The position numbers and the translations under genes are program-made. A stretch of DNA of 64,000 nt from Pseudomonas protegens (GTDB lineage: Bacteria > Pseudomonadota > Gammaproteobacteria > Pseudomonadales > Pseudomonadaceae): positions 3,224,001 to 3,288,000 of the forward strand of contig NZ_CP060201.1 of assembly GCF_013407925.2 (NCBI RefSeq), given 5' to 3'. Shown here one piece after another: positions 33,128 through 52,003 of the stretch; positions within the stretch are counted from its first letter, which is position 1, and each line of letters begins with the position of its first letter. Below the pieces are notes generated by a model that ran no database searches, was not told the DNA's origin, and saw only the letters and a list, made by a program, of their open reading frames with translations.

Positions 33128-34960
<1,833 letters not shown>

Positions 34961-34980: not shown

Positions 34981-34985
34981 AGACA
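34981..34985. repeat. target-site duplication, left copy
   Basis: AGACA, the five bases preceding the transposon end, is repeated at 51603-51607 after the other end. A 5-bp duplication is characteristic of Tn7 insertion. Confidence 0.93.
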
Positions 34986-35052
34986 TGTGGGATGCAAATA
35001 AAGTTTCATCTGTATAAATAAAGAACCATCCTTACAAATAAAGCTTCATCCC
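34986..35052. repeat. Tn7-R-like end with three tandem TnsB-type sites
   Basis: Three copies of an AAATAAAGNNNCATC-like motif follow each other with about 21-base spacing: 34991-35010, 35011-35031 and 35032-35052. The closely packed array next to tnsA resembles the right end of Tn7, where TnsB sites overlap. Confidence 0.88.
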
Positions 35053-35105
35053 AAGCTTGCATCCGCTATGTTTAGGTTATCGACACAGCGGGTGCAGGCT
35101 TTCTC

Positions 35106-35933: not shown

Positions 35934-38007
35934 TCAGGTGTTCCTGATTGGGGAACTGCGAAAGCGCCTGCTCTGGTCCGGTACCGAGCAGGCAGTCTGG
36001 ATCAATATCGATTCGGACACGGCGCTGCCCGAACCGATATCGGTTGCAGAGCTGGAGCGGCTGCTCATGGAGCGGGAGTTGGAGAGTATTGCCGATCCCT
36101 TCGAGGAGACAGTCCTACGGGAGGTGGAGGAAGGTTCCCTTGATCAACTGAAGCGTGATGAAGCTTGGGCAATGTTGGCGGATTTTGTGCACGATCCCCA
36201 GCTTTTCGTGCGGCGCCCCAGAGGGCTCATTGTCAGAGGCATAATGGAGCATCATGGTGTCACCAAGCAGACGGTGTACAGGTTACTGAGGCGCTACTGG
36301 CAGCGAGGCATGTGCAGGAACGCCCTCTTGCCGGACTATGTAAACTCGGGCGCCCGTGGTAAGCGCCGAAAGCCGAGCCAGGCCAAACTGGGCAGGCCTA
36401 GAGTGGTGATGGAGGGGAAAGGGAGCAATGTCACTCCGGATGTCGAGCGCATTTTTCGCCGGGTCATCGAAGAACGCTTGCTCAAGGAAAAACATTCGTC
36501 CATTCCTGATGCCTACGCCTCCGGGTTGAACCTGCTCCGTGCTGTTCTGCCGGAGCTGCCGATCTCCGAACTGCCTACATTGGGACAGTTCCGTTACTTC
36601 TATGGGCGCGAATATCACTTCACCGACACTTTGCCACGCAGGATGTCCGCTGTGGATTTTGCCAAGGACTTCCGGCCGATCAGCAGCACATCGACGACCG
36701 AGACATTGGGGCCCGGATACCGCTACCAGATAGATGCCACCATCGCCGATATCTATCTGGTTTCAGAACATGATCGCAGCCTTATCGTCGGCAGGCCTGT
36801 CGTTTACATGGTTATCGACGTGTTCAGCCGCATGGTGGTCGGTATGTACGTTGGATTCGAGGGCCCTTCCTGGATAAGCGCCATGGTGGCATTGGCCAAC
36901 ACGGTTGCCGACAAGGTCGAATATTGTCGCCAGTATGGTGTGGAGATCGATGCTGGAGACTGGCCGGTCAAAGGCTTACCGGATGTGGTGCTGGCCGACA
37001 AGGGCGAACTGAACGGCACCAAGGTGGAAGCATTTTCCCAAGCCTTCGGCGTTCGTATCGAGAACGCACCGGCCAGACGAGGGGATGCAAAGGGCATCGT
37101 CGAGCGTTATTTCCGGACGATGCAGGAGCGTTTCAAACCCTACGCCCACGGTGTGGTCGAGGACACCACTAGCCGGAAACGAGGTGGCCACGACTACAGG
37201 CTTGACGCCAGTCTGACCTTGCCCGAGTTCACGCAGATCATCATTGCCGGGATTCTCTACCACAACAACTTCCACACGTTGAGCAAATACGACAGGGCTG
37301 CGGGGATGCCGGGCGATCTGCCGGCCATCCCGGTCATGCTGTGGAACTGGGGCTTGGCCAACCTGACCGGCCGGTTGCGTACTGCGCCCGAGGAACTGGT
37401 GCGGATCAACCTGTTGCCCCATGAGTCGGCCACGGTTTCGGAGCTGGGAATCAGGCTATTCGGCTGCTTCTACACCTGTCAGAAGGCACTCAGGGAGGGT
37501 TGGTTCCACCGAGGCCAGGGGCGCCGGCCGGCAGTGGTAACGGTCGCATATGATCCGCGTAGCGCCGACCACATCTACCTGCGGCCATCCAATAGTCTCA
37601 AGGATTACTGGATTTGCGATCGTGCTGACCGCAGTCGACGTTTTAGAGGGATGACCTTCTGGGATGTCTGGCTGCTGTCCAGAGAGGAGCGGCGTAGCGA
37701 TGCCAACGCGGCGGCGGAAGCCTTGGTGGAGAGAGGAAAGCTTCTGGGGCATATTGAGTCCATCGTTGCCCAGGCAGAGGATGCCAGTCCGGTCAAAACA
37801 GGTATGACCAAGAAGGATCTGGGAACCCAGATCCGCGAGAACAAGCAGCAGGAAAAGCGTCAGGAACGCCAGAAAACTGCATTCAAACCGAAGAAAGTGC
37901 AGCAGGAGAAGCCAGCCGAGGTGATCCATCTGCGGAGCGAGAAGCAGGAAGATTATGCCTTCCCAGATCTCAGCGATCTGATATTCAAGGAGGAAGAGGA
38001 TGACTGA
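35920..38007 (+). CDS. tnsB: Tn7-like DDE transposase TnsB
   Basis: TnsB, 695 residues, binds the transposon ends and carries out 3' strand cleavage and joining. The DDE triad is D272 (YRYQIDATIAD), D360 (VVLADKGELNG) and E395 (GIVERYFRTMQ), within one residue of the Tn7 triad. An N-terminal DNA-binding part precedes the retroviral-integrase-like core. The C-terminal tail is rich in Lys, Gln and Glu and resembles the tail that contacts TnsC. It starts with GTG after AGGAG and overlaps tnsA. Confidence 0.97.
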   Translation: MLPVNQVFLIGELRKRLLWSGTEQAVWINIDSDTALPEPISVAELERLLMERELESIADPFEETVLREVEEGSLDQLKRDEAWAMLADFVHDPQLFVRRPRGLIVRGIMEHHGVTKQTVYRLLRRYWQRGMCRNALLPDYVNSGARGKRRKPSQAKLGRPRVVMEGKGSNVTPDVERIFRRVIEERLLKEKHSSIPDAYASGLNLLRAVLPELPISELPTLGQFRYFYGREYHFTDTLPRRMSAVDFAKDFRPISSTSTTETLGPGYRYQIDATIADIYLVSEHDRSLIVGRPVVYMVIDVFSRMVVGMYVGFEGPSWISAMVALANTVADKVEYCRQYGVEIDAGDWPVKGLPDVVLADKGELNGTKVEAFSQAFGVRIENAPARRGDAKGIVERYFRTMQERFKPYAHGVVEDTTSRKRGGHDYRLDASLTLPEFTQIIIAGILYHNNFHTLSKYDRAAGMPGDLPAIPVMLWNWGLANLTGRLRTAPEELVRINLLPHESATVSELGIRLFGCFYTCQKALREGWFHRGQGRRPAVVTVAYDPRSADHIYLRPSNSLKDYWICDRADRSRRFRGMTFWDVWLLSREERRSDANAAAEALVERGKLLGHIESIVAQAEDASPVKTGMTKKDLGTQIRENKQQEKRQERQKTAFKPKKVQQEKPAEVIHLRSEKQEDYAFPDLSDLIFKEEEDD

Positions 38008-39610
38008 AGAACTCCAGCGCGGAGTCATTCCTCTGGCGCGTTACCAGGAACAGCAGTTGCCCGAATATCAGGAAAATCCGCTCATCTGCGCATTACCTCC
38101 GATTCCTGATCTGCAGGAGGTGGTCAACCTATTGCAGCAGCTTCCCAGTTTCGCGCCGCAGGAGGCGCTTCTGGATGGTCGACTCAGGGCTCATGCTATC
38201 GCCCGCCTGTTGCACGGCTTTTTCCAGCCGCTGAGTCACCACCTGGAACTGGAGAGCAAGATTAGCTTGATGGTTCGTCAGGGCTACATTGGTCGAAATC
38301 CGGCCAGTGGCGCTTGGTATGCGCACATGCAGAATGGCTATCGCCGGTTAGAGGAAGAGGATCTAGATGCGGCGGTGTACCAGAGCGTTTCCTCCACGGC
38401 CAGCAGCCTGTCGCTGTTTGGCTGCTCCGGTTGCGGTAAGACGCGCACGCTAGAGCGGATTTTGGGTATGTACCCCCGGGCCCTCCATCACCCTGACTAC
38501 AACATCACTCAATTGGTTTACCTGAAGGTCGACTGCCCCATCGATGGCGACCTAGATGAGCTGTGCCTGAGCTTCTTCAACGAGGTAGACAAGATCCTGG
38601 GTACTCACTACAGCCGTAGCCACGGGCGCAAGAAGTTGGGAACCAAACGCCTGCTGGCATCCATGTGTCAAGTAGCCAACCTGCACGCACTCGGTGTGCT
38701 GATAATCGACGAGGTTCAGAATCTCAACGAGGCACGCTCCGGTGGTGCCGAGAAGATGCATAATTTCTTCGTGTCGCTGGTGAATACTATTGGTGTTCCG
38801 ATCATTCAGGTCGGCACTCACCGGGCCAGTAAGTTCTTTCAACGCACTTTCCGGGCTGCTCGGCGGGTCTCCGGGCTGGGTAGCATCCGTTGGGATAGGT
38901 TGCCTCGGGACGAGCACTGGAAGCGCCTATTGAAGCGGCTCTGGAAGTACCAGTGGCTGCGAAATGTGGTGCCGCTGGACGACGAGTTGGAATCGACCAT
39001 GTATGACCTCACCCAAGGGGTCATGGACATCGTCATCAAGCTGTTCGCGCTGGCGCAGATCCGGGCGATAGTGACAGGCGTCGAGTGCATCAAGCCGCTG
39101 TTGTTGCGGAAGGTTTTCGAGGACGAGTTCAAACCGGTCCATCCGATGCTGGCGGCCTTGCGGAGCGGTAGACCCGAACTGATCGCCAAATATGACGACC
39201 TGCTGATGCCAGAGATCGAGGGGCGGTTGCTGATCCTGACTCGTTCTCTGGATAACGTCGCCCAATCGAAACCGCCAGCACCTCTGGCTGATGATAAGGC
39301 CAAGCGGATGGCCGCCCTGCTCGAAGAAATGGAAATCCCAAGGGATATTGCGATTCCCATGGCCGACGAACTGTTGGCGGAGAATCCGGGTATCCCGCTG
39401 GCGGCCCTGATCCACAAGGCTACGGCCTACCTCGCGCAGGAGGTTCCCAAGAGGCCCAGCATTTCTAGGGTTAAGCGGACGGAATGGGGACGCCTATCCG
39501 AGGAGGATCTGCGTAGACGTTATGCCGATGGGCTTGTCAGTGAGGTCTACGACAGATTCAAACAGGCTGGCCTGATCCTTGATCTGCGGCCTCTGCTGAG
39601 AGCGAGCTGA
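38000..39610 (+). CDS. tnsC: Tn7-like AAA+ regulator TnsC
   Basis: TnsC, 536 residues, is the ATP-dependent matchmaker between the target selector and the TnsAB transposase and enforces target immunity. Walker A is G141-C-S-G-C-G-K147-T148 in LFGCSGCGKTRTL, and Walker B is LIIDE with D237 and E238. The length is close to Tn7 TnsC. ATG 38000 overlaps the end of tnsB by eight bases, and tnsD starts two bases after its stop. Confidence 0.97.
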   Translation: MTEELQRGVIPLARYQEQQLPEYQENPLICALPPIPDLQEVVNLLQQLPSFAPQEALLDGRLRAHAIARLLHGFFQPLSHHLELESKISLMVRQGYIGRNPASGAWYAHMQNGYRRLEEEDLDAAVYQSVSSTASSLSLFGCSGCGKTRTLERILGMYPRALHHPDYNITQLVYLKVDCPIDGDLDELCLSFFNEVDKILGTHYSRSHGRKKLGTKRLLASMCQVANLHALGVLIIDEVQNLNEARSGGAEKMHNFFVSLVNTIGVPIIQVGTHRASKFFQRTFRAARRVSGLGSIRWDRLPRDEHWKRLLKRLWKYQWLRNVVPLDDELESTMYDLTQGVMDIVIKLFALAQIRAIVTGVECIKPLLLRKVFEDEFKPVHPMLAALRSGRPELIAKYDDLLMPEIEGRLLILTRSLDNVAQSKPPAPLADDKAKRMAALLEEMEIPRDIAIPMADELLAENPGIPLAALIHKATAYLAQEVPKRPSISRVKRTEWGRLSEEDLRRRYADGLVSEVYDRFKQAGLILDLRPLLRAS

Positions 39611-39611
39611 C

Positions 39612-41114
39612 ATGTATTTCCCCAGGCTCTACCCGGACGAGCTGCTCTACAGTGGCATTGCTCGGTGCCGGGTACATCTGGGGATCGGCAGCCACAAGAC
39701 TTTGCTGCACATGCTGTTCGGTGACAGCAAAGTAGCTGCGATCACCGACCTGCCTACGCACCTGGTCGCTCTGGCGAACAATACTGGGCTGGATACGGCG
39801 AACGTGATCGTGCGTCACACGCTGTTTCCGCTCTATGCCCCCTTCATTCCACAGGAGCGTCGTACCGACCTTTTCCAGGCCATGCTCGCTTCCGACCGGC
39901 CGACCATTGGTCTGGCTGGTGCTTCGACGGCCTTGGTCAAATGGCCTGAGTGGCTACGTTATTGCCCGGTCTGCTTTGACGATATGACCGCCCGCTTCGG
40001 TGAGCCCTACTGGCGGCGTAGCTGGCAGATCCAAGGAATAGATACTTGTCCCGAGCATGGCTGTCAGCTCTTGAACTCTCCCATCCCGTTCCGACGAGCG
40101 CAGCGGCATGAGTTTCATCCAGCCTCTCCCCTGTTTTTGCCCCGTGATCTTCGCGTGAGCCCGGCGAGAGAAGAAGCTATCAGGCTCGCCAAGGCTGCTA
40201 CGCAACTGCTGTCGCTTGAAGAAACACAGTCGCCTGGCTACGGTCGTTGGACCAACCTGTACCGTTATTTGGCTACAAAGTGCGGCGCTAGGCGCGGCCG
40301 GCAGGTCAGGGCTGAAGTTATCTGGGAGAAAATCCTGGCATCCCACCGCCGGGATTGGCTTGCTGTGAACGGTCTGCTGACATCCGGGGAGCCTCCGCCC
40401 TGGCTGTTAGCGATGTTCAGGAACCATCGCAAGGGATTCAGTGCGCTGCAGCATCTGATCGTCTGGACCAGCTTGCGCCCCGGCCAGCATGCTGGCGAAC
40501 TGATCGACGAGGCGAACACTCGCCAGGTCGACCTTCCCACCGAACAGTCAGCGCAGTTGCTCCCTGCTGAGTTAGAGCAAAAGCAGCAGTACCGAGCCGT
40601 TTGGCTGCAAGTGCTGGATAACCACGGTGGAGCCAAGGCAGCTAGGCAAGACGGAGGGGAGGCATGTTACGCCTGGCTCTATCGTCATGACCGACACTGG
40701 CTGATGGCTGTGAATCAGGCTAGGCAGCGCCGACAGGGCAACAACAGTCACGTCGACTGGCGAGCACGCGACAGGAAGTTGGTGCGCCTGCTAATCCGAA
40801 TTGCCAGAGACGGCGAAGAAGACCTGAGGCTGCCGCGCAGGAGCCGCAATTGGTTCCTGCAGCAGCTACCACATCGGGCATCAGTCGAGCACCACCTCGA
40901 TCAAATGCCTCTGTGCCGCACTTTCTTGGATCGCTACGCCGAGTCTGTCGGCGAGTATCAGATCCGTCGCCTGACTGCAGCGATGCTGGAGGATGTACAG
41001 ACTGGCATATCGTCCAGATACTGGGAGCTGGAAAAGCGTTGTGGATTGGAAAAAAACAGGGTGTCACCGCTGACCACTGTGTTCATTCGATTGATAGGAC
41101 GATGGATTGAATAG
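39612..41114 (+). CDS. tnsD: Tn7-like target selector TnsD (TniQ family)
   Basis: TnsD, 500 residues, recognises the end of glmS and directs insertion downstream, which matches the element's position. The N-terminal TniQ domain begins YFPRLYPDELLYSGIARCR and has a zinc-finger arrangement C118-x2-C121 (YCPVCF) and C146-x2-H149 (CPEHG). The C-terminal half holds DNA-binding repeats of the TnsD type. A single TniQ gene is present, so this element has one sequence-specific targeting route. Confidence 0.95.
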   Translation: MYFPRLYPDELLYSGIARCRVHLGIGSHKTLLHMLFGDSKVAAITDLPTHLVALANNTGLDTANVIVRHTLFPLYAPFIPQERRTDLFQAMLASDRPTIGLAGASTALVKWPEWLRYCPVCFDDMTARFGEPYWRRSWQIQGIDTCPEHGCQLLNSPIPFRRAQRHEFHPASPLFLPRDLRVSPAREEAIRLAKAATQLLSLEETQSPGYGRWTNLYRYLATKCGARRGRQVRAEVIWEKILASHRRDWLAVNGLLTSGEPPPWLLAMFRNHRKGFSALQHLIVWTSLRPGQHAGELIDEANTRQVDLPTEQSAQLLPAELEQKQQYRAVWLQVLDNHGGAKAARQDGGEACYAWLYRHDRHWLMAVNQARQRRQGNNSHVDWRARDRKLVRLLIRIARDGEEDLRLPRRSRNWFLQQLPHRASVEHHLDQMPLCRTFLDRYAESVGEYQIRRLTAAMLEDVQTGISSRYWELEKRCGLEKNRVSPLTTVFIRLIGRWIE

Positions 41115-41559
41115 GACCTTATTCCGTCAGATCCAGAATGGATCTAGGCTGCTAGCTATTGGAAACTTGTTTAGAGCGCCCACTGCGGGGGCCCAGTGGC
41201 GCTTGGCGACACTTTTTGAGCGTAACGGCCAGTTGCAGTTGCAGCGGTTCCCGTTGGAGATGTCCTGTGTCCTTGCGGTTGGTCGCGAGTTTCCTGGCGA
41301 AGAAGGGGCTCCTTACCGTACCAGTGGTTTCAAGAAGACGGTGGTGCTTCCTGTAGTAGATACCTGGCGGGAAAGGCAGTTGGGCGAATGCCCGCGTTTA
41401 GCAAGAAGGTTGGCAGCAAACCCTGAGATATCTGAGCAACAATGCTTTGTGTTTGAGGCCGATGGTCTGACCGTCTGGCTGCCGAAATTCGAGCTGGCGC
41501 GCAAACTGTTCTTCCACGCGGCTTTCATCGTCCGTGCAGCCTTCGAACCGATGGTCTGA
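41107..41559 (+). pseudogene. tnsE: tnsE, 5' part before an apparent frameshift
   Basis: This frame encodes 150 residues from a TTG start that overlaps the tnsD stop. It aligns with the N-terminal third of Tn7 TnsE: GNLFRAPTAGAQWRL matches its GHLFRNSGHKEWRI, and KFELARKLFFHAAFIVRA matches QLELARSLFLINSYFCRS. After residue 145 (near 41541) the frame ends in eight unrelated residues and TGA. Adding one C in the CC run at 41540-41541 joins it to the next frame. TnsE directs Tn7 to lagging-strand DNA on conjugating plasmids. Confidence 0.85.
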
Positions 41560-41561
41560 AC

Positions 41562-42713
41562 ATGGCCTTCACGATCTACAGAGAGGGCGATGCTGTTCAT
41601 ATCCATACGCCTACGAAGACGGGCGCGCCAAGTCAGCTTCTCAGAGTCAAGGGGTACAGAGACCATTTCAGTTGGCTGCTGCTGAATCAGGATGTGAAGC
41701 GATCCTTCGAGTCGATCTGGCAAAGTCTCAACCAAGAGGAAGAACGGGTATCGCAAGATTCGGTGTATGCCAGGTGGAAGTTCGACTTCACAGCACCCAT
41801 TTCCCTCGCAGATACCACCATGTATGTGCGAGGCCCCTTCGACCCGAAAAGTAACGAGTTGCTGGTCTGGGAGATTGAAACCCTTCAAGGGCTCCGATTT
41901 AACCATCGTGGCGATGTTTTTTTCCATCACCCAGCTCTCAAGCTTCCTGTCAGGGGAGAGAGCACAGGCTGTGCACCTGGGCCATCGGGAGCTGAAGAGG
42001 TGGAGGTGGATGCTAACGAGGAGCCGACTGCTGCCAAGGAACCGAAGTTGATTCATCTGCCCACTGAGGGAATCATTTTTGATTCTCAGCTGAGTAGCAA
42101 GATTGCCTACAACGGGGAGCGTGCCAGTGGTCATGGCAAGAAGGTCGAGGACCAACAATATCCGAGCAGGGAGAGCCAGCTCTTTGGCGTGGCTGATCCC
42201 GTGAGCGGCGGCAGCATAACACCAGGAGAGTTCCAGCAACTGGATGAGGGGGAGGATTATGAGCGGTTTGCAGATCGCTTCTCGCTGCTCCGTGAGATTA
42301 TTGGGCAGATTGCCCAAGAGTTTGGCGCTCTGGTATCACTGGAAGTAAAGCCGCTGCCTTCCGTTCCGCGCTGTAGCTACCACATGATTGATAACGAAAC
42401 ACCGCGCTGTTATTTGCTGGCAAGTTTCAAGCTGCAAAACGGCAATCAACGCTACCTTCTAGAAATAGATACCTCAGACAACCGAAAGACTATGTCAACG
42501 CGGATTATTGGTTTCAAAGAAGGTGCTGAAGCAGAGAAATGCGTAGACAGGGTCTTGAAGGGGACAGTCAAAGGCTCGTTGCGCTGGCCAGTCACCATGG
42601 CGAAGTACTGTGAGCCTTTGCACTCTGTACATCATCCGAAAGAAAGCTCATCTGGTGCCAACCATGCCAGGATCTTCGAATGGAAGCAGCGGATAAGCTC
42701 TGCCCTGAGCTGA
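41562..42713 (+). pseudogene. tnsE: tnsE, 3' part after an apparent frameshift
   Basis: This frame continues TnsE homology; read from 41541 it gives LRTDGLNMAFTIYREG, which aligns without a gap with the corresponding Tn7 TnsE segment. LLNQDVKRSFESIWQSL matches its FSDQDVMDSYESIFRHY, and the C-terminus (ALRWP-like SLRWPVTM, HHPKESS) matches SLNWPNSL and NHPKGLG. The joined protein would be about 535 residues, against 538 for Tn7. The ATG at 41562 could restart translation of a 383-residue C-terminal fragment, which holds the DNA- and clamp-contacting half. Confidence 0.85.
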
Positions 42714-42845
42714 CCGAAATACACAGTTCGAATGCGACACATTTTGTCGCTAGCTGCGTATTGGCAAGCCACGACGTTATCGTTGCGTAGCCTGAGGCAA
42801 AACGTATGCCAGTTTGGCAGTTAGACTGGATAGCCATCAACTATT

Positions 42846-43283
42846 ATGCTTACCCCTACATGCTACCTATCGTCCCCTAGAAATATGGAAATTTCAATGC
42901 TTCACATAGCCTCGCTAAAAGTGCCTCTCCGACGCCGAGTGCTACTAAGGGCAGCCATGGAAAAAGTAGTCTCAAGGACCAAAAAGTCTTCTGATGGTGG
43001 CCGCATTTGGCGTACCTATTGGCTTGCAGGTACTGAGCAAAAGGAACTGGTACCGTCTGAGCTAATTTCCGACTCTGCAGCTTTAGGCGAAACTAACTAC
43101 ACATCAACTTGCGCAATTAAAGATGCAGAGCGTAACACCATAACTGTTGATGTAGTTCATCCCCGAACTACTATCTTAGGGGGGGCTATGGAATACTCAT
43201 CTCTGCCTGACTCAGGCGATAGGATCCATGTTACTCAAGTATCAAATGATACACCAAGAGATAGTGCGATTCACCAAATCTGA
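42846..43283 (+). CDS. hypothetical protein, first cargo frame after tnsE
   Basis: I do not recognise this protein. The frame gives 145 residues (131 if it begins at ATG 42885). It is soluble, with a basic N-terminal third (LKVPLRRRVLLRAAMEKVVSRTKKSS) and a Ser/Thr-rich remainder. No clear ribosome-binding site precedes either start. The base composition becomes visibly richer in A and T here, which makes a 145-codon open frame more meaningful than in the GC-rich flanks, but it may still be chance or a decayed gene. Confidence 0.4.
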   Translation: MLTPTCYLSSPRNMEISMLHIASLKVPLRRRVLLRAAMEKVVSRTKKSSDGGRIWRTYWLAGTEQKELVPSELISDSAALGETNYTSTCAIKDAERNTITVDVVHPRTTILGGAMEYSSLPDSGDRIHVTQVSNDTPRDSAIHQI

Positions 43284-43365
43284 AACGCAAAAATTATATA
43301 AAAGTACACCGCGGTCGAATTTTAACGTATGAAATTCAAAACTATATTTTTACACTAAATTTTAG

Positions 43366-44484
43366 ATGGGTAGATTAATGATAATACAGTCAGATTTCAA
43401 TTTTCCGAAATCCCCAGAGGAGCAGGAAATTCTTGACTCGGACATTCAGGAAAAGCAGAAAATAACTGATCATGAAATCAGAGAATTTCCCGTCAGTGTG
43501 ATTGTCGAGAAGTTTAAAGACGGTCTTGATAAAGATGAAGCTGAGCTATATATCCCAGATTACCAGCGAGAGTTTATTTGGAGCGACGCTCAGCAGTCAA
43601 AATTCATTGAGTCGATTCTGTTAAACCTTCCAATCCCTTACTTATTTGTCGCAGACATTGGCCAAGGTAAATATGAGGGCCGACTTGAAATCGTTGATGG
43701 CAGCCAGAGGATTAGAACTCTAGTACGTTTTACAGATAATGACCTAATGCTTGCGGGCCTGAAGAAGCTTACTTCAGCTAACGGATTTAAATTTTCAGAC
43801 TTCTCCAAACCTCGTCAGCTCAGATTTATGCGAAAAACGCTGAGGATGATTGAATTAACTGAACTTGCGGATGAGGAAACTCGCCGAGAAATTTTTGACA
43901 GGCTAAATTCTGGCGGAACGAAATTAAATACCATGGAGTCACGCAGAGGAAGTCATGACGGTCCGTTCTTGGACTTCATTGACGAATTAGCAAAAAATCC
44001 GTTGTTCCATGAGCTATGCCCTATTAGCCGTTCTCGATCCGAGAGGGCTGAGTACCAAGAACTCGTACTTCGTTTATTTGCGTATTCAGATAATTACTTA
44101 GGTTTCGATAAGGAAGTTGACGCCTTTCTGACAGAGTACTTGATTTCAAAAAATGAAAGCTTTGATGAAGATCGCCTTCGCAATGAGTTTGACTCAATGC
44201 TTATCTTTGTAAAAAAACACTTTCAGTACGGCTTCAGAAAAAACGCAGCAAACTCCACTGTTCCTAGAATTAGATTTGAAGCTATATCGGTTGGTGTGGT
44301 CCTTGCATTACGCGAACAACCTGATTTGGTTCCTGCGGACCCTAGTCCATGGTTGAACTCACAAGAGTTCATTACTCACACGCGCTCTGATGCAAGCAAC
44401 TCCAGACCCAAAGTTAGAAATCGCATCAATTTTGTACGTGATAATCTCCTCGGAAAAGTAGCCTTCGAGGATTCAGCGCCATGA
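43366..44484 (+). CDS. DUF262 (GmrSD/ParB-like nuclease fold) protein
   Basis: A 372-residue protein with DUF262 motifs: YIPDYQREFIWSDAQQSKFIESIL at about 65-88, and LEIVDGSQRIRTL at about 105-118. DUF262 is the N-terminal part of the GmrS/GmrD-type modification-dependent restriction enzymes and is related to ParB/sulfiredoxin-like NTP-binding domains. The C-terminal DUF1524/HNH nuclease of full GmrSD is absent, so nuclease action would need a partner. The HEPN gene overlaps its stop by four bases, a pairing seen in other genomes. Start 43366 is uncertain (ATG 43378 is possible; neither has a good ribosome-binding site). Confidence 0.88.
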   Translation: MGRLMIIQSDFNFPKSPEEQEILDSDIQEKQKITDHEIREFPVSVIVEKFKDGLDKDEAELYIPDYQREFIWSDAQQSKFIESILLNLPIPYLFVADIGQGKYEGRLEIVDGSQRIRTLVRFTDNDLMLAGLKKLTSANGFKFSDFSKPRQLRFMRKTLRMIELTELADEETRREIFDRLNSGGTKLNTMESRRGSHDGPFLDFIDELAKNPLFHELCPISRSRSERAEYQELVLRLFAYSDNYLGFDKEVDAFLTEYLISKNESFDEDRLRNEFDSMLIFVKKHFQYGFRKNAANSTVPRIRFEAISVGVVLALREQPDLVPADPSPWLNSQEFITHTRSDASNSRPKVRNRINFVRDNLLGKVAFEDSAP

Positions 44485-45281
44485 CAATAAGCCGGGACAC
44501 CTTTAAAGAGCGTGCTGAAGAAATCGAGCTTTACTTTGAATTCCTCAAGAACATTATAGAAAAAAAAGCTTCATTAATTTTCCCCTTACCGAGGGGAGCT
44601 GCTGCAGAGATAGAGCGTGAGGAGGCGTCTATCTCTCTTGATTTGACCCATACTTTGAAGGCAAATGGCTTTTTGCTTTTATACAACTTAGTTGAAGCCA
44701 CAGCGACTAACGCCTTAGATGAAATTCATGAGGAACTAGAAAGAGAATCAGATGGTGATATTGGCTCGGATCATCTAATAGAGCCACTTATGAGTAGGTC
44801 AGTTCGTCGTTTTAAGGTTGATGCTCTTAGTGCTGCCGATCTATGTGCGCATCCTGCAAGTCGTCTAATCTTGAGGAGTTGGTTGAATCAGGATAGGAAA
44901 GACATAAAAGATAATAGAAACCCATGGTTCTCAGGGAATGTCGATGCTTTGAAAATAAGGCAAATCGCTGGGGAGTATGGATTTTCTAGTGATACAGATA
45001 AGGCAAAAACAAAAAATGGAGGCCGCCTTGTTAATGTAAAAAAGACTCGAAATGAGTTGGCGCACGGTCATACAGCTTTCAGAGATTGTGGACGAAACGT
45101 AGAGATTGAAACTCTTTGCCAGATAAAGGACGAAGTTATCCATTATCTTTCTGAAATCCTGGACAATGTTGAGTCGTATATACGTGATCGTGGATATTTG
45201 GCCAAGAAAGAGGTAGCCATCGTTACTCCGATTATTGCTGGTGGCGATTCAGAAGTTACTGAAATAGCCTCGACAGCCTGA
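44481..45281 (+). CDS. MAE_28990-like HEPN family putative RNase
   Basis: A 266-residue, mostly helical protein. The HEPN active-site motif R-x4-H is seen as R190-N-E-L-A-H195 in KKTRNELAHGHTAF. HEPN proteins of this kind are metal-independent RNases, often toxins or effectors of defence systems. The order DUF262 then HEPN resembles the MAE_28990/MAE_18760-type pairs. Its ATG overlaps the DUF262 stop, so the two are translated together. The next gene begins 73 bases later on the same strand. Confidence 0.86.
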   Translation: MTISRDTFKERAEEIELYFEFLKNIIEKKASLIFPLPRGAAAEIEREEASISLDLTHTLKANGFLLLYNLVEATATNALDEIHEELERESDGDIGSDHLIEPLMSRSVRRFKVDALSAADLCAHPASRLILRSWLNQDRKDIKDNRNPWFSGNVDALKIRQIAGEYGFSSDTDKAKTKNGGRLVNVKKTRNELAHGHTAFRDCGRNVEIETLCQIKDEVIHYLSEILDNVESYIRDRGYLAKKEVAIVTPIIAGGDSEVTEIASTA

Positions 45282-45354
45282 TGAGTACATAGCTCGCGTA
45301 TGGCAGCCGTATATTCGCCCAGCGTTTTGTAATCCCAAATAGAGGTAGGCTATC

Positions 45355-47304
45355 ATGTCGCCATATCAAATGACCATTGACCTAAATGTCTTAGATCATT
45401 TGGGGATCAACTTATATAGCAACGTTGCTGCGGTACTTACGGAGATCGTTGCTAACGCCTGGGATGCCGATGCTACCGAAGTTATTGTGACTTATGATAC
45501 AAGCTCTCAGCAAATCGCCATACAAGACAATGGTATTGGGATGACTATTGAGGATATGAATAATAAATTCCTCAAAGTTGGCTACCGACGGCGGGCGAAG
45601 GAAAGTACAACTACAGCTTTAGGTCGGCACGTGATGGGCAGAAAAGGACTCGGGAAGTTGTCTCTTTTTTCAATCGCTGAGGATGTCCAAATTGAGTCAG
45701 TAAAGGATTTTCAGCGCCACGGGCTCATGATGAATGTTGCAAAAATCAGAGAGGCCATTGATGGGGAACTCAGCCGTTACGTGCCGGATGCGCTGTCGAG
45801 TGAGTCTCTCTCTGTGGATGTAGGCACAAAAATAGTTCTGTCTAAACTTAAGAAGGGAAGAGTACCCTCAACACTTACAGCTCTTCGTCGCAGGCTCGCT
45901 CGTCGTTTTTCAGTAATTGGTAGCAAGGACTTTAAAGTTATCATTGATGGTGCTCCGGTTACTGCGGGTGAGCGAGATGATATTCGCGCTGTTGAGTACC
46001 TCTGGCATATTGGCGATAAGCTTGAGTCTCGTACTCGGTCGGCTGTGAATCTTCGAAGTGAGATCACATTACCTACGAGACTTGAGGGTTGGCAATCTGA
46101 TTGGCAAGTACGTGGTTGGATCGGAACAGCAGTTAAGCCTAAGATGCTTGTTGATGCGGACGGAAATAATTTAAATTCAATTGTCCTTATGGCTCACGGA
46201 CGGCTCATACAGGAAAACATTCTAGACAATATTAATGATGGGCGTCTTTACACTAAATATCTTACCGGCCAGCTCGAGGCTGATTTTCTAGACTTTGATA
46301 CAGATGATGATCTTGCTACTAGTGACAGGCAACGAATCCAAGAGAGTGACCCGCGCAGTGTAGCAATGTCAGCATACCTGAAGAGTTTACTTTCTAAAAT
46401 TGAGCCGCAATGGGCAAAATGGCGCCGCGACTCCGGAGCCCAAGATGTAGCTGAAGAGCATCCAGTAATTAAGGAATGGTTTTCTTCTTTAGACGAAAGC
46501 TATAGAGATCAGGCAAAAGCATTATTGGCGAAAGTTGCTTCACTGCCAATTGACAACGAAGACGATAAAAAAACCGTTCTTCGTGACAGCATTATGGCGT
46601 TCGAACGTCTGAAGCTGCGCGGCACAGTTAATGAATTAATTGATGCTGTCGAAATTGGCGCCGACCGGTTGATGCCATTAATTGCTCAGCGGGACTCACT
46701 AGAGGCCACCTTATACAGAGATATTATCAAGTCTCGAATTGAAGTCATTCGTGTATTTCAAAAGCTTGCTGATGAAAATGAAAAAGAAAAAGCACTGCAG
46801 AATCATATCTTTGATCACATGTGGCTACTTGATCCCACATGGGAGCGAGCTGATGGATCTGAGCTAATAGAGACTCGACTGACTAGCGAGGGTGTTATTG
46901 TCGAAGATCTGACTGAGAAGGAGCGACTAGGCAGAGTCGATATAAAATACAGGACTATTCTCGGCACACACATTGTGGTCGAGTTGAAACGTGCAGGCCG
47001 GAAAATGGGGTTAATGGAGTTACAAGCTCAAGGAATTTTGTATGCCGACAAACTCCGGAAAATTTTGCTTGCTCAAGGCGAGACAAGCCCCGTAATTGAA
47101 GTAGTATTTGTAATCGGGCCTCCTGTTGATGAAGAGAGCAGCAACCCTCTTCGGGTAAGGAGCATGATGGACGCTATTTCCCCCGGCTCAAGAATTGTTC
47201 ATTTTGACACATTGATCAGTAGCGCGCTAAAGGCGTATCAGGCATATATTGATAGTAACAAGGAGCTTGATCGTGTCGATAAGATTGTTGCGCAGCTGAC
47301 ATGA
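45355..47304 (+). CDS. GHKL (MutL/MORC-like) ATPase fused to a restriction-endonuclease-like domain
   Basis: A 649-residue protein. The N-terminal GHKL ATPase has the N-box E30-I-V-A-N34-A-W-D37-A38, motif D58-N-G-I-G-M and the loop G95-RKGLGK. These are the ATP-binding motifs of Hsp90, MutL and MORC proteins. A transducer-like middle follows. The C-terminal 130 residues contain D529 (RVDIKY) and E543-L-K545 (VVELKR), the D...ExK pattern of PD-(D/E)XK nucleases, then a Gln in LQAQG. MutL/MORC-like ATPases with attached nuclease domains are known from restriction-modification loci. RBS AGGTAGG precedes the ATG, and the stop overlaps vsr. Confidence 0.88.
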   Translation: MSPYQMTIDLNVLDHLGINLYSNVAAVLTEIVANAWDADATEVIVTYDTSSQQIAIQDNGIGMTIEDMNNKFLKVGYRRRAKESTTTALGRHVMGRKGLGKLSLFSIAEDVQIESVKDFQRHGLMMNVAKIREAIDGELSRYVPDALSSESLSVDVGTKIVLSKLKKGRVPSTLTALRRRLARRFSVIGSKDFKVIIDGAPVTAGERDDIRAVEYLWHIGDKLESRTRSAVNLRSEITLPTRLEGWQSDWQVRGWIGTAVKPKMLVDADGNNLNSIVLMAHGRLIQENILDNINDGRLYTKYLTGQLEADFLDFDTDDDLATSDRQRIQESDPRSVAMSAYLKSLLSKIEPQWAKWRRDSGAQDVAEEHPVIKEWFSSLDESYRDQAKALLAKVASLPIDNEDDKKTVLRDSIMAFERLKLRGTVNELIDAVEIGADRLMPLIAQRDSLEATLYRDIIKSRIEVIRVFQKLADENEKEKALQNHIFDHMWLLDPTWERADGSELIETRLTSEGVIVEDLTEKERLGRVDIKYRTILGTHIVVELKRAGRKMGLMELQAQGILYADKLRKILLAQGETSPVIEVVFVIGPPVDEESSNPLRVRSMMDAISPGSRIVHFDTLISSALKAYQAYIDSNKELDRVDKIVAQLT

Positions 47305-47711
47305 TGGCCAGCACACGTAGTGAAATTATGCGTGCAGTCAAGCGAACGCATACTAAGCCGGAACTTAAAGTGCGAAGACTACTACACGCACTAGGGCTGC
47401 GCTTTAGGCTTCATCGTCGTGACCTGCCAGGCTCTCCTGATATCGTTCTGCCAAAATATCGCTGCATCATCTTTGTCCATGGTTGTTTTTGGCATCGACA
47501 TCCAGGATGCCGCTATGCGACTACTCCAAAGACACGACAGGAATTTTGGATACCAAAGTTTTCCGCAAATGTAGAGCGTGATTATCGAAAGCATGCCCAG
47601 CTAATTGAGCTGGGCTGGAAGGTTTTGATTGTCTGGGAATGTGAAGTTCGGAATGAAACGGCTTTGACGCAACGTTTTACGCAAGAGTTCGGGCTTTCTC
47701 AATTTCTTTGA
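47301..47711 (+). CDS. vsr: very-short-patch repair endonuclease (Vsr)
   Basis: Vsr, 136 residues, nicks beside T:G mismatches left by deamination of 5-methylcytosine. Conserved features are E21 (TKPELKVRRLLHALGLRFRLH), D47 (PGSPDIVLP), H60/C62/H65/C70 (VHGCFWHRHPGC) that carry the zinc and active-site histidines, and the C-terminal WECEV. It overlaps the ATPase gene, and its 3' end overlaps the convergent cytosine methyltransferase by 35 bases, matching the known functional pairing of Vsr with a C5-methyltransferase. In this context a restriction role cannot be excluded. Confidence 0.95.
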   Translation: MMASTRSEIMRAVKRTHTKPELKVRRLLHALGLRFRLHRRDLPGSPDIVLPKYRCIIFVHGCFWHRHPGCRYATTPKTRQEFWIPKFSANVERDYRKHAQLIELGWKVLIVWECEVRNETALTQRFTQEFGLSQFL

Positions 47712-48735
47712 GGTGCTGTTTTAGGCTCAAACCGATAACTTCGCCAAGACGCACGGGTACGGCATTACCGATCATGCGTCCTACCGATTTGAAGGTTATA
47801 TCTTCTGGTGGCATGAATACATAGTTGAGCGGGAAGGATTGTAGTAGTGCAGCTTCACGAAGGGATATTCCTCGATTTTGCTCTGGATGCCCAAAACGTC
47901 CATTACCAAAGCCATAGCAAAGCGTTGTCATGGTGGGGCCTGGTTGATCCCATCGCATGCGCCCATACACGCTAGGATAAGTCTTGCCACTCTCCTTTTT
48001 GTGACATGTAGCTATGAGATCAGGAGGCCAATCCTTCCATGTCCCGCCTGGTCGAGAGTGAATAATTCTCTTAATATTCAATGGGTTCAGGCTTGCAGCT
48101 CGATGCAGGGGATCGTTTGGATCGCACTCCCCTGCAGCGAGACGCGGTAGATGGCCAATCGTTTTCTCAACAGTCACCGGGTGTTCATGATGAGTGGGTT
48201 TGATCAGTGAAATAGGTCCAAGCTTGGATGCAAGGAGGACATGACGGCGACGCTGTTGAGGAAGTCCATAAGCGGTGCAGGTGACTTTTTCAGCCCAGAC
48301 GAAGTAGTTTAGGTCTTCAAGCGCTTTGACGAAGTCGTGATAAACCTTGTGCTTTGTCACGTCAGGAACGTTTTCCATTGTGACTAGCTCTGGCTGCACG
48401 CCTTCAATGAGCCTTTTGAAGGCATAGAGCAAAGGCCACTTACGGTCTAGCTTGGTATCTCGGCCTTGATTGTAGCTAGAGAACGGTTGGCAGGGCGCAC
48501 AGCCAGCCAATAGCTTGATGGATTTTGGTCGGTACCATCTGGCAATTTCTTCGACCGATACATCCTCCACACTCTTGGTTATGAAGGCAGTGCCATTGTT
48601 TTTTTCGTAGGCGTATTTGCAGTTTTGGTCAATGTCATAGCCTGCGCGTACGCGCACGCCGGCTTTGCGTAGCCCTGCGGTCAAGCCGCCGGCACCACAA
48701 AAAAGGTCAACAGTATCGATCTTTGGCATTGGCAT
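47677..48735 (-). CDS. DNA (cytosine-5) methyltransferase
   Basis: A 352-residue C5-cytosine methyltransferase. Motif I is VDLFCGAGGLTAGLRKAG, motif IV is GCAPCQPFS with catalytic C82, motif VI is ENVPDV at 121, motif VIII is QQRRRHVLLA, and motifs IX-X are RMRWDQPGPTMTT and GNAVPVRLG. The target-recognition region between VIII and IX is short to medium in length; the recognised sequence cannot be read from it. It faces vsr and the GHKL ATPase tail to tail, which makes these three genes a probable restriction-modification cassette with modification transcribed separately. Confidence 0.95.
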   Translation of the reverse strand: MPMPKIDTVDLFCGAGGLTAGLRKAGVRVRAGYDIDQNCKYAYEKNNGTAFITKSVEDVSVEEIARWYRPKSIKLLAGCAPCQPFSSYNQGRDTKLDRKWPLLYAFKRLIEGVQPELVTMENVPDVTKHKVYHDFVKALEDLNYFVWAEKVTCTAYGLPQQRRRHVLLASKLGPISLIKPTHHEHPVTVEKTIGHLPRLAAGECDPNDPLHRAASLNPLNIKRIIHSRPGGTWKDWPPDLIATCHKKESGKTYPSVYGRMRWDQPGPTMTTLCYGFGNGRFGHPEQNRGISLREAALLQSFPLNYVFMPPEDITFKSVGRMIGNAVPVRLGEVIGLSLKQHLKEIEKARTLA

Positions 48736-49616
48736 TGAGTCCGCCTCCTAATGGAGGCCATTCTAGCTGGATCTGGCGTAAAGATCGAGCACGAATAGTG
48801 CGTTGAAATATGTTTCCGCCGTGAGGGTCCGTCAAGCACATCTTCCTGATGTCGCTGGCGAAGGTCATAGTGCCCACCTGATTTTTAGTGGACACGGTTG
48901 TCAATATGGCCGGAATCTGATAGGTGGAAGGTTATTGAGAGATTGCAGCGACATCAGTGGGCATTTGCCTACCCGGCGCAAGGAGTATCCCCCACACGTA
49001 TTGGGCATCTAGAAATCCAGGCGGGGGAAATTTCTGAGGGCGCTTCAATCAAGTGGTGCTATTAAGATAGACTAAAACTAAATAGGTTTGAGTGAGTACG
49101 TAACTATTACGGATATTACCGTCTATGAATATGAAGTGACGCACAGAACGAAGATCGCGAATTTCATATACAGTGCAGACTATCCGATTCTTACTGGAAT
49201 CATCATCCGCTTCTGCCAAATGGTTCTAGATGACGCTTTTTCGTCAAATCAGTAACTTCAGACGGATTTGCTGGCGGAGCGCGATCAACTCGCTTTTAGC
49301 GTCGAAACTCAATATCTTTTCGGTCATAAAAATCAGCGCTTATTAGACCAGCTAGCTGGCTTGTCTGCTCCTACCTAGAAGGAATCAACTACCTTGTGGA
49401 CAGGTGTTTGGTGGGCAGTGAATCACGATACTTCAGGTAAAGGTCAAGCGCGAGAATCAACTCATCTCGGGTCCAGGCAGGGCAGGGTTGGATTGGGATT
49501 GATGGGTAGGTTCTTCCATGGTCTCGACTCTAAGAGTCCAATAATTCAATGGTCAGTGGCTGGATGCAATCTTGCAATAGTGGAATGCCCCTGTCAGAAG
49601 CAAGCATGGAGCTGCT
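48736..49616. other. 880-base stretch with no convincing gene
   Basis: No frame with both a start signal and recognisable protein is present. A TTG-initiated frame of 55 codons at 49088-49255 (ending FCQMVLDDAFSSNQ) and a frame of about 40 codons ending at 49378 (LLAERDQLAFSVETQYLFG) look like protein remnants, and the stretch may be debris of former cargo. The promoter of the methyltransferase must lie near 48740-48850. Confidence 0.45.
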
Positions 49617-50177
49617 ATGAAGCTGGACCGGCTAGATCTCATCGACAAACAGATGCGCTTGATACTCGCAGTGAAGCGAGGTCGGTCCGATAGGTGGTGT
49701 CTCAGGCTATGGAGCCACTTCATCAAGGCTAGAGATGGCCATCAATGCGTCGTTTGCTCTTCGGATGGTCGTACTCAGGCCCACCACATCTTTCGTAGGT
49801 CGGTGTATCGGTACGGTTGGTATCAGACGGGTAATGGCATCACGCTTTGTCATGAGTGCCATGAGCGACAGCACTCTACCTTCAATGGCCGGCCAAATAT
49901 GAATCTGCCGATGGATGCGGAAGGTGGGGACAACTTAGATGAAGCGCTCGTCTATTTCGATTGCTTGATTAGGTCCGCGAACATTCAAGGACATGATCAC
50001 GACGAGTTCTATTACATAGACGATCACATGCTGTTTTTCTTCATGCGTCTGCAGCAGTGCGAGCACATGCGTAAATTTTTGGAGTGCGGAAAGTACAGCC
50101 GACTGAGAATCGCTCATGAAATTTGGCGAACCTTTCCGCCAAGCGTTCTAGCAGCACTCATACGAGCCAACCTTTGA
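49617..50177 (+). CDS. HNH endonuclease, first of tandem pair
   Basis: A 186-residue protein with an HNH nuclease core: CVVC (about residues 42-45), then AHHIFRRS and GNGITLCHECHERQHSTFNG. The paired CxxC motifs would bind zinc and the His-Asn-His residues a catalytic metal. The second half is helical and of unknown role. ATG 49617 has GGAG about 8 bases upstream. The stop overlaps the start of a second, related HNH gene. No methyltransferase or helicase adjoins it directly. Confidence 0.87.
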   Translation: MKLDRLDLIDKQMRLILAVKRGRSDRWCLRLWSHFIKARDGHQCVVCSSDGRTQAHHIFRRSVYRYGWYQTGNGITLCHECHERQHSTFNGRPNMNLPMDAEGGDNLDEALVYFDCLIRSANIQGHDHDEFYYIDDHMLFFFMRLQQCEHMRKFLECGKYSRLRIAHEIWRTFPPSVLAALIRANL

Positions 50178-50788
50178 TGATTCCGAGAGAGGCATTTCGC
50201 GGCATATCTCCGGCGATTGAACACTTGGAGGCTGCAAGGGCGGCATTGATGCGAGCTGTCACGGCCCAGCGCTCGGAGCGGTGGTGTTTGGCGTTATGGG
50301 GGCGCTTCATCCGGATGCGTGATGGCTACCGATGTGTGCATTGTGAGTCAGTGCAAAAGATCCAAGCGCACCATATTTTCCGTCGAGTCACATTCCCTCA
50401 TGGAAAGTATGAGTTGGGCAACGGCATCACCCTATGTCACGGATGCCACAAATCTCTGCATGCGAAATTCAATGGCCGACCACTAAAGAGCGAGCCGCTC
50501 AACGCGCGTGGTGGCGATGACCAGGATGAAATGGCTTATCTCTATGGACGCCTTGCGGCCGACGCCGATGATCGAGGGCTCGATAAGGAGCGTTTCTATT
50601 TCATTAGCGACCGGATGTTGGAGTATTTCGTGGCGTTGCAAGGGTACGAGCCGCTTCTCCAAGATATACAGGCAGGAGGGACTAGCCGCATACATTTTGC
50701 CCACGCCATATGGTGGAGCATGCCTGAGAAATTCTATGAGATGGTGTATGGCCAAATCTTGAGCGCTGTGTTTGCTGCCAAGGAGTAA
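50177..50788 (+). CDS. HNH endonuclease, second of tandem pair
   Basis: A 203-residue paralogue of the preceding protein. It shares the layout WCLxLWxxFI-xRDG-CVxC, AHHIFRR, GNGITLCHGCHKSLHAKFNG, a D-rich GGDD(Q/N) segment, a YF(Y/F)I-D-ML helix and AHxIWxxxP near the C-terminus. The start at ATG 50177 overlaps the previous TGA (TGATG), so translation is coupled; a longer frame to 50123 is open but lacks this signal. Divergence of the two copies is substantial, so the duplication is not recent or the two work as a heterodimer. Confidence 0.87.
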   Translation: MIPREAFRGISPAIEHLEAARAALMRAVTAQRSERWCLALWGRFIRMRDGYRCVHCESVQKIQAHHIFRRVTFPHGKYELGNGITLCHGCHKSLHAKFNGRPLKSEPLNARGGDDQDEMAYLYGRLAADADDRGLDKERFYFISDRMLEYFVALQGYEPLLQDIQAGGTSRIHFAHAIWWSMPEKFYEMVYGQILSAVFAAKE

Positions 50789-50893
50789 GTTTCGCCTTTG
50801 ACCTACTCAATATCGGCTGTTCTAGACCACCATCTTCGCCAGTCAGTCTGTGTGGTACGCTCAGAATATCGCTGGATTCATGAGGTAATCCAA

Positions 50894-51088
50894 ATGAGCA
50901 GTTTTCATCAGACAGATAGCAGCTTTGCCGAGATCATTGAGGGCAAGGCTCGCCGACGCGAAGAACTGATAAAAGCTATCCGAGAGGCAGACCCGGCGGT
51001 CTTGGCGGAAGCAACTGAGCGCCTCAGAGAGGCTATGCGCCATAGAGATCCCAGCCAGCGGCGTCGCCGGCTAGGACGGCTGTTATAG
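50894..51088 (+). CDS. small charged protein, 64 aa, beside the HNH pair
   Basis: I do not recognise a family. The protein is very rich in charged residues (EGKARRREELIKAIREAD and RDPSQRRRRLGRLL) and predicted helical throughout, with a basic C-terminus that could bind nucleic acid. ATG 50894 is preceded by GAGG at good spacing, unlike the longer frame from 50798. It lies about 105 bases after the second HNH gene, same strand, and is the last gene before the transposon end. A role as partner or inhibitor of the HNH proteins is only a guess. Confidence 0.55.
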   Translation: MSSFHQTDSSFAEIIEGKARRREELIKAIREADPAVLAEATERLREAMRHRDPSQRRRRLGRLL

Positions 51089-51286
51089 CCGTTTTTCGAT
51101 TACGGCTGCCTGAGCTTTGCCAGCTGTTCTTCCAGCAGCCAATTGCTGGGCGTTTAGTAGACTCTCCTGTACCAGCTCCAGTTTGTTGATCTCTCCCTGA
51201 TACTGATGGCTGGTTGGGATTCAGTCTCATCTAGTCACGAGACCTAATGGTATCGGCCAAGTCTTATTTGAGGGATAGATCTACCA

Positions 51287-51376
51287 GGGGCTGGGGGGGC
51301 GTCTGCGCCTTTTGGCTTGATCGTCTGCGGCCAGCGCCTCCTTAGGCGCAGCAGTTAGTAAGCCCCCCCCCCAGCC
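51287..51376. repeat. long imperfect palindrome with G- and C-tracts
   Basis: GGCTGGGGGGG (51289-51299) faces a run of eleven C followed by AGCC (51363-51376). Inside, CTGCGCC (about 51303) faces GGCGCAG (51345-51351), and GCGCCTCCTTAGGCGC (51334-51349) is itself a hairpin. The whole can fold as one extended cruciform-like structure just inside the transposon end. I do not recognise it. Confidence 0.6.
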
Positions 51377-51384
51377 TCAAAAGA

Positions 51385-51602
51385 GATGAAACTTTATTTT
51401 TATAGTTTTCGGCGATTTTCGACGTTGATCGAAAATTAAGATGATACTTTAGCGCCTTTCACGATCATCTTAGAAAATGCCTGGCCAAGTGCTTTGCCAC
51501 AAATGATTCTCTAGTTAGTACATTGATTCTTATAGATTTTTTCGAGCGGCCAGGCCTCTCTCGGCTCTTAACCTTAGGATGGGACTTTATTTTCATCCCA
51601 CA
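51385..51602. repeat. Tn7-L-like end with separated TnsB-type sites
   Basis: Copies of the TnsB-type motif in inverted orientation occur at 51385-51405, about 51440-51456 (weaker) and 51577-51602, the last being terminal. Wide spacing over about 220 bases resembles the left end of Tn7, in contrast to the dense array at the glmS-proximal end. Confidence 0.85.
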
Positions 51603-51607
51603 AGACA
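51603..51607. repeat. target-site duplication, right copy
   Basis: AGACA follows the CCCACA terminus directly and matches 34981-34985. Confidence 0.93.
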
Positions 51608-51631
51608 GCTGTAACCCCATCACCCAAGGAA

Positions 51632-51663
51632 GTCCCGGCTTGTGCACAGGCCGGGATTTTTTT
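51632..51663 (+). terminator. glmS terminator displaced by the transposon
   Basis: A GC-rich stem (51633-51642 with 51647-51656, partly with G-T pairing near the loop) is followed by seven T residues. It lies 30 bases past the transposon and so would originally have been about 55-60 bases after the glmS stop. Confidence 0.85.
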
Positions 51664-51682
51664 ATTGAGCTGTGGAAAACCT

Positions 51683-52003
51683 ATGAAGCTGCGCTTGATT
51701 CATGGATGGACGATTGCCCTGATCCTGGTGGTCCTGCTGCTGGGCGGGCTGACGCCGGTGCTGTCCAATAGCCTGTTGCTGCTGATGGACCGGGACAACT
51801 TCATTCCCGCCGAATCCTCGATCTGGACCTTTGAGCCGACTCTGATCAACCAGGGGGCAGCTTCCTATTGGCTGTACGGCGAAGACCGGCAGCACTACTT
51901 CTATTTTTCCTACGCCGAGGATCAGCCGTATCAGCTGATCGCCAGGGACAACCTCTGCCCAGGTTTCGACAGGCACGACGTGCGCACCTGGTGCCGACCC
52001 TGA
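51683..52003 (+). CDS. small membrane-anchored hypothetical protein, 106 aa
   Basis: I do not recognise a named family. The protein has one N-terminal membrane segment (about residues 8-36, TIALILVVLLLGGLTPVL) and a polar C-terminal domain rich in Tyr and Asp with two cysteines, probably in the periplasm. It follows the glmS terminator, a position where pseudomonads often have a small gene. The start ATG 51683 has only a weak GGAAAA site. Confidence 0.65.
   Translation: MKLRLIHGWTIALILVVLLLGGLTPVLSNSLLLLMDRDNFIPAESSIWTFEPTLINQGAASYWLYGEDRQHYFYFSYAEDQPYQLIARDNLCPGFDRHDVRTWCRP

Follow-up and report, generated by a model that had tools for sequence, protein, structure and literature searches.

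Restriction-modification (R-M) systems of the BbrUII/HgiDII type II kind pair a restriction enzyme with a C5-cytosine methyltransferase, and one account of M.HgiDII describes it as a 5-methylcytosine (5mC) enzyme for GTCGAC (PMC5867850). In the passages of Iyer, Abhiman and Aravind (2008) that deal with the paraMORC3 group, such proteins combine GHKL and S5 modules with a C-terminal restriction-endonuclease-fold (RE-fold) domain that carries an E-D-ExK signature, and genes of the MORC and paraMORC groups are described with methylases and Vsr nearby (PMC2292703). The account of VcSduA, a GHKL and nuclease protein of Shedu type I-D, states that phage protection was lost when either active site was altered, offers control of the nuclease by the ATPase module as a hypothesis and notes that proteins with a GHKL N-terminus and a PD-(D/E)XK C-terminus were formerly labelled paraMORC3 (PMC12137116). 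The relevant parts of the HEPN survey (Anantharaman 2013, PMC3710099) identify R-N-x3-H as an RNase motif and propose that HEPN RNases give restriction systems a second line, as in the PrrC type; one line of a table lists operons of HEPN MAE_28990 with a ParB nuclease and a DNA methylase. Here we describe a locus that brings such parts together, carried by a Tn7-type element in a 64,000-nucleotide stretch of Pseudomonas protegens (contig NZ_CP060201.1, positions 3,224,001 to 3,288,000; hereafter the window). In window coordinates, its genes are:

43366-44484, + strand: DUF262/GmrSD_N gene, 372 amino acids, D111-G112-x-Q114-R115 motif (Pfam 2.9e-27; PADLOC NsnA 1.3e-53 and PD-T4-2_A 1.6e-34)
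44481-45281, + strand: HEPN_MAE_28990 gene, 266 amino acids, R190-N191-x3-H195 motif (Pfam 1e-20)
45355-47304, + strand: ATPase gene, 649 amino acids, BbrUII/HgiDII-family restriction enzyme, paraMORC3 with GHKL, S5-type and PD-(D/E)XK-like C-terminal parts (NF050001 E 2.4e-232; Pfam HATPase_c_3 1.1e-19)
47301-47711, + strand: vsr, 136 amino acids, Vsr short-patch repair endonuclease, 4-bp overlap with the ATPase gene (TIGR00632 3.7e-45; PDB 1cw0 1.3e-36; Pfam Vsr 2.1e-30)
47677-48735, - strand: dcm, 352 amino acids, C5-cytosine methyltransferase of the HgiDII-type lineage, converging on vsr with a 35-bp overlap (Pfam DNA_methylase 7.1e-51)

The DUF262 and HEPN genes overlap by 4 bp, and the HEPN gene ends 73 bp 5′ of the ATPase gene on the same strand. 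The ATPase gene and vsr separate the methyltransferase gene from the HEPN gene by 2.4 kb; in relatives the methyltransferase gene usually adjoins the pair directly. An earlier, sequence-only reading had described the last three genes as a cassette, with positions and overlaps that the open reading frame (ORF) and Pfam evidence upholds. It overlooked the upstream DUF262-HEPN pair and suggested that the cassette, which is real, could be a compact restriction system in which an ATP-driven clamp works with a Vsr-type nickase, a proposal that is not supported. We think it probable that this is instead a compound R-M locus carried as Tn7 cargo, in which a BbrUII/HgiDII-type system and a DUF262-HEPN pair are both licensed by a single methyltransferase.

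The ATPase matches NCBIfam NF050001, 'BbrUII/HgiDII family restriction enzyme', over its full length (residues 4-648) at 773 bits, far above the curated cut-off of 550, and the PADLOC REase_II profile at 1e-112; a protein search returned 3703 proteins at E <= 0.001 among 8000 candidates scored. Across 25 diverse aligned members of the family, that of the window included, N34, E506, D529, K545 and Y563 do not vary, Q559 hardly does and conservation of E543 is at least 90%; the C-terminal residues make up an E-D-ExK plus QxxxY signature. An AlphaFold2 model (mean pLDDT 75.4, pTM 0.57) places E506 in a helix (502-511), D529 in a strand (527-534), E543 in a strand (539-544) with K545 just past it, and then a helix (553-573) and a strand (581-587). 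This predicted order fits that of the PD-(D/E)XK core. The nuclease-like D529...E543-x-K545 region and the N34 residue singled out by the sequence-only reading are both borne out, and the C-terminus, rather than lacking a nuclease fold, has the predicted elements of one.

With a GHKL and S5 module and a C-terminal RE-fold domain bearing E-D-ExK, the protein has the architecture of paraMORC3, and its methylase and Vsr neighbours agree with contexts that the paper gives for the group as a whole. Fold searches with the whole model list the GHKL/S5 half only, and a PDB profile search with the family alignment gave 153 sequences at E <= 10, of which the 60 listed all cover the ATPase half only. VcSduA shares the GHKL N-terminus and PD-(D/E)XK C-terminus and is described as a member of the Shedu family, whereas the SduA_C profile has no match to the window ATPase; 7 of the 25 aligned family members match it, at best with 3.5e-5, and hhalign to two Shedu proteins gave P 0.066. 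By family assignment, the trio of ATPase, vsr and dcm is a known kind of R-M system. It differs from BbrUII/HgiDII in having an upstream DUF262-HEPN pair and Tn7 carriage, and its specificity is assigned by family only.

The upstream pair has retained its motifs, and a methyltransferase stands nearby. Among aligned relatives, all 14 HEPN sequences keep the R-N-x3-H motif, and all 13 DUF262 sequences have the same D, G, Q and R in DG(S/T)QR. Neighbours were counted within 4 kb, except in one list of 22 ATPase loci (below), for which DUF262 and HEPN were counted within 6 kb; redundancy is high, with many loci nearly identical or one contig found by two queries, and raw counts are accompanied by clustered ones. 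Among the best 80 of 119 viral-contig relatives of DUF262, 65 have HEPN and an HgiDII-type methyltransferase, 4 have HEPN and another or broken methyltransferase, 7 have HEPN only and 4 have neither (45, 4, 7 and 3 of 59 representatives after clustering at 90%); 7 of the 11 loci lacking a methyltransferase are on incomplete stretches. On plasmids, a methyltransferase of the window lineage accompanies DUF262-HEPN in 8 of the 10 loci examined, which were drawn from the 25 listed among 335 records. A megablast query with locus L195 (loci are given by our handles) found the DUF262-HEPN-methyltransferase trio in 1 of 5426 Escherichia coli genomes, under three separate annotations. Used as a single query, the HEPN protein found no relative in viral contigs.

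The same counts bear on the possibility that two independent neighbours, a BbrUII-type R-M system and a stand-alone PD-T4-2-like DUF262-HEPN pair that makes no use of the methyltransferase, share the transposon by chance. Tn7 elements gather defence genes, the window DUF262 matches PD-T4-2_A at 1.6e-34, and DUF262-HEPN pairs without this methyltransferase exist, including three on complete stretches (L103, L267 and L286). PD-T4-2 itself, as far as the account of it goes, has a DUF262 component and a HEPN (PMC10952713), and differs in that the window HEPN has no PADLOC family match at 0.01. Against chance stand the overall methyltransferase linkage of 65 in 80 and the closest relatives of the window DUF262, nine viral loci at 60-66% identity among those 80, seven of which have the methyltransferase and two of which lie at a contig edge. 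We hold independent neighbours to be unlikely, if not negligibly so. Menshen, which shares a DUF262 component (NsnA 1.3e-53) and was considered for that match, was dropped, as no OLD nuclease was present among the cargo proteins scanned.

To place the methyltransferase, we searched with an alignment of 9 DUF262-linked, 6 ATPase-linked and the window sequences. Among the best 80 of 353 relatives, 50 stand beside DUF262-HEPN and 23 beside the ATPase, which the selection prevents from being a natural ratio, and the others have a distant GHKL protein only (3), HEPN only (1, on an incomplete stretch) or no partner (3); the corresponding 52 representatives at 90% divide into 30, 16, 2, 1 and 3. A tree was built from methyltransferases of 320-420 amino acids scoring at least 350 bits, with one per 85% cluster (94 representatives plus the window). 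The partner classes are intermixed on it, with 19 changes, at least 8 of which are forced by well-supported branches, and a single clade of DUF262-HEPN-linked methyltransferases is rejected (approximately unbiased test, P = 1.6e-5, quick tree). Partner labels are still clustered: all 500 shuffles needed more changes, a pattern that occasional swaps would leave. The topology indicates that the two partners have been exchanged repeatedly on one methyltransferase lineage. The closest methyltransferases with different partners are 82% (L054, ATPase and Vsr, and L138, DUF262-HEPN and Vsr) and 78% (L149 and L170) identical; that of the window is nearest to L224 and L138, both linked to DUF262-HEPN, and then to the ATPase-linked L054, in a weakly resolved group.

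The target-recognition domain (window residues 172-262, boundaries set by eye) has a mean identity of 0.529 between methyltransferases with the same partner (1966 pairs) and 0.518 between those with different partners (1950 pairs). Binned by catalytic identity, the same-partner and cross-partner values are 0.500 and 0.502, 0.528 and 0.522, and 0.563 and 0.561 in the first three bins, and 0.634 and 0.603 in the fourth, which has 8 cross-partner pairs. Identity to four control methyltransferase rows, two of which are the same place and all of which are also more distant in the catalytic part, is 0.241. Because the domain is about as alike across partners as within them, we infer one target specificity common to both partner classes. 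In the open-licence literature, we found no paper on partner swapping in this methyltransferase lineage or on the combination of DUF262, HEPN and methyltransferase, and MAE_28990 was found only in the HEPN survey. The table line there has the same three kinds of gene, and its relevant passages contain neither partner swapping nor the methyltransferase lineage, target site or paraMORC3 combination (PMC3710099).

The C5-methyltransferase is also the usual partner of the ATPase, and Vsr is optional. On viral contigs, after removal of three loci with an ATPase below 100 bits, the methyltransferase is present at 29 of 30 ATPase loci, Vsr at 12 and DUF262 at none; six loci (L113, L116, L117, L119, L123 and L131) have the window-like order of ATPase, vsr and converging methyltransferase. 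The 22 other ATPase loci comprise 2 Pseudomonas contigs, 6 plasmids (chosen from 30 listed of 47), 1 phage and 13 further genome regions. An HgiDII-type methyltransferase is present at 15 of them and a weaker one at 3; the remaining 4, among them L060 at a contig edge, lack one. Vsr accompanies 5, and DUF262-HEPN a single one (L059).

The window Vsr scores 153 bits against a curated cut-off of 97.85 and aligns to 1cw0 over residues 7-128. Since Vsr is also seen at 2 of 5 representatives that have the methyltransferase and neither module, its role is best read as repair of deaminated 5mC. Counting against this, Vsr turns up more often beside the ATPase (14 of 39) than beside DUF262-HEPN (3 of 50; Fisher P = 7e-4), an excess that, as well-supported branches yield only 7 independent pairs, is indistinguishable from shared descent. 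This excess, and the 4-bp overlap of vsr with the ATPase gene, would suit a new compact system in which an ATP-driven clamp acts with Vsr as the nicking restriction effector. However, the ATPase belongs to the family of a named restriction enzyme, and 18 of the 30 and 17 of the 22 ATPase loci have no Vsr within 4 kb. The clamp and nickase is not supported, because Vsr is optional and also adjoins methyltransferases that have no ATPase; on the distribution of Vsr and the family of the ATPase we reject it as the leading explanation, and we consider it very improbable.

Two ATPase loci have other settings. In Escherichia phage PhiR44_1 (L051, PV340563), which has P2-type gene names, an ATPase annotated as ParaMORC3 and Dcm lie between portal and replication genes. 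On plasmid p96k of Deinococcus sp. AJ005 (L035), ATPase, methyltransferase and Vsr are beside the DISARM genes drmC and drmA.

In the compound locus that we favour, the C5-methyltransferase would mark host recognition sites, GTCGAC by family, and the GHKL-S5-PD-(D/E)XK enzyme would cut DNA without the mark, its ATPase module perhaps gating the nuclease as hypothesised for VcSduA; the enzyme family is seen here, and the activity is predicted from it. Vsr would repair T:G mismatches arising from 5mC deamination. DUF262 may serve as a nucleoside triphosphate-driven sensor of unmethylated sites or of methylation loss that releases HEPN, on the model of the PrrC-type second line that the HEPN survey puts forward (PMC3710099), and the HEPN RNase, once released, would cut RNA as a second, possibly abortive line. 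The methyltransferase is the sole match to its lineage at E <= 1e-10 in the 6.8-Mb genome. GTCGAC occurs 24 times in the window, including 5 times in the element (raw counts). A more specific version, in which one mark licenses two swappable restriction halves, the DNA-cutting paraMORC3 and the RNA-cutting DUF262-HEPN acting at the same unmethylated site, with the Tn7 cargo stacking both on one methyltransferase, is possible and we advance it tentatively.

DUF262-HEPN might alternatively be a type IV-like guard that is set off by modified foreign DNA and complements the restriction enzyme against modified phages. The DUF262-bearing GmrSD and BrxU target modified cytosine, according to the passages that treat them (PMC10952713). 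Yet the recurrent partner is a host 5mC methyltransferase, whose product would be a trigger unless 5mC is ignored, and no DUF1524 nuclease domain was present in the cargo proteins scanned; such a guard seems improbable.

Several observations weigh against joint licensing. HEPN_MAE_28990 occurs in the gene order of the window in 13 of 341 genomes including the window's own, and 11 of the 12 other loci have no such methyltransferase nearby while the twelfth has a different methyltransferase type beside HEPN, so HEPN-DUF262 pairs exist without this methyltransferase. None of 195 other methyltransferase places has both modules within 4 kb, and two methyltransferases are present at the one locus with both side by side (L059, the same place as L099). 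What is observed is the association of DUF262-HEPN with the methyltransferase, from which we infer a response to methylation, and the presumed GTCGAC specificity is taken from family names and the one account of M.HgiDII (PMC5867850). In L099 (4012-11555), DUF262-HEPN with one methyltransferase type adjoins a GHKL ATPase with an HgiDII-type methyltransferase, as two methylation modules in tandem.

The element that carries the locus, and the genes around it, are as follows:

33128-34960: glmS, identified by domains; the element is inserted after its stop
34981-34985: left copy of the target-site duplication AGACA, 5 bp, 20 bp past the glmS stop
34986-51602: Tn7-type element, 16,617 bp, with end repeats, from TGTGGGATG at 34986 to CATCCCACA ending at 51602
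35106-42713, + strand: tnsA, tnsB (Mu-transpos_C), tnsC (TniB/AAA_22), tnsD (TniQ, TnsD) and a TnsE_C-bearing ORF (Pfam)
49617-50177 and 50123-50788, + strand: two tandem paralogous HNH genes (Pfam HNH_2/HNH near cut-off)
51603-51607: right copy of AGACA, 5 bp

With tnsABCD(E), end repeats, a 5-bp duplication and insertion after glmS, the element is of Tn7 type, and the earlier suggestion that the cassette is transposon cargo is confirmed. Across 2-kb windows, G+C is 0.42-0.53 at 42-52 kb and 0.54-0.69 outside the element; the lower G+C of the cargo is compatible with a foreign origin. A joined-flank query found no empty insertion site in 40 genomes of the genus including the window's own; apart from the two halves in the window itself and one short exception elsewhere, its matches in relatives are at the glmS end. 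Megablast of 42700-52000 against plasmids gave no match. A 150-amino-acid ORF without a Pfam match (41107-41559) directly precedes the 383-amino-acid TnsE_C protein (41562-42713) in a different frame. Because their combined length is near that of Tn7 TnsE, the window tnsE may be split or truncated.

Between tnsE and the DUF262 gene lies a 145-amino-acid ORF (42846-43283) without a Pfam, PADLOC or NCBIfam match at the thresholds used. The HNH paralogues and a 96-amino-acid ORF occupy 49617-51088, and the likeness of the former to DpdF and IscB HNH domains is weak. HNH homologues adjoin the ATPase-vsr-dcm cassette in two relatives (L005 11873-12775 and L054 10333-10956), with 81% DNA identity between the window HNH region and L005 over 854 bp. 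Promoter and terminator scans gave signal no higher than in shuffles.

The trio and, in a table of the HEPN survey (PMC3710099), a HEPN-ParB-methylase operon are known; what is worth following is the DUF262-HEPN combination and the repeated partner exchange. A methyltransferase and a matching DNA cutter define a restriction system, and here one methyltransferase lineage repeatedly exchanges an ATP-driven DNA nuclease for DUF262-HEPN while the recognition domain stays alike. Were the pair to read the same unmethylated site, the DUF262-HEPN-methyltransferase module would be an R-M system in which the restricting part acts on RNA, and a phage that blocks one half would still meet the other where both are stacked on one methyltransferase. 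Methylation would then license an RNase, which would tie restriction to abortive infection in a compact and testable way, and the P. protegens element would be a natural locus where the two work together.

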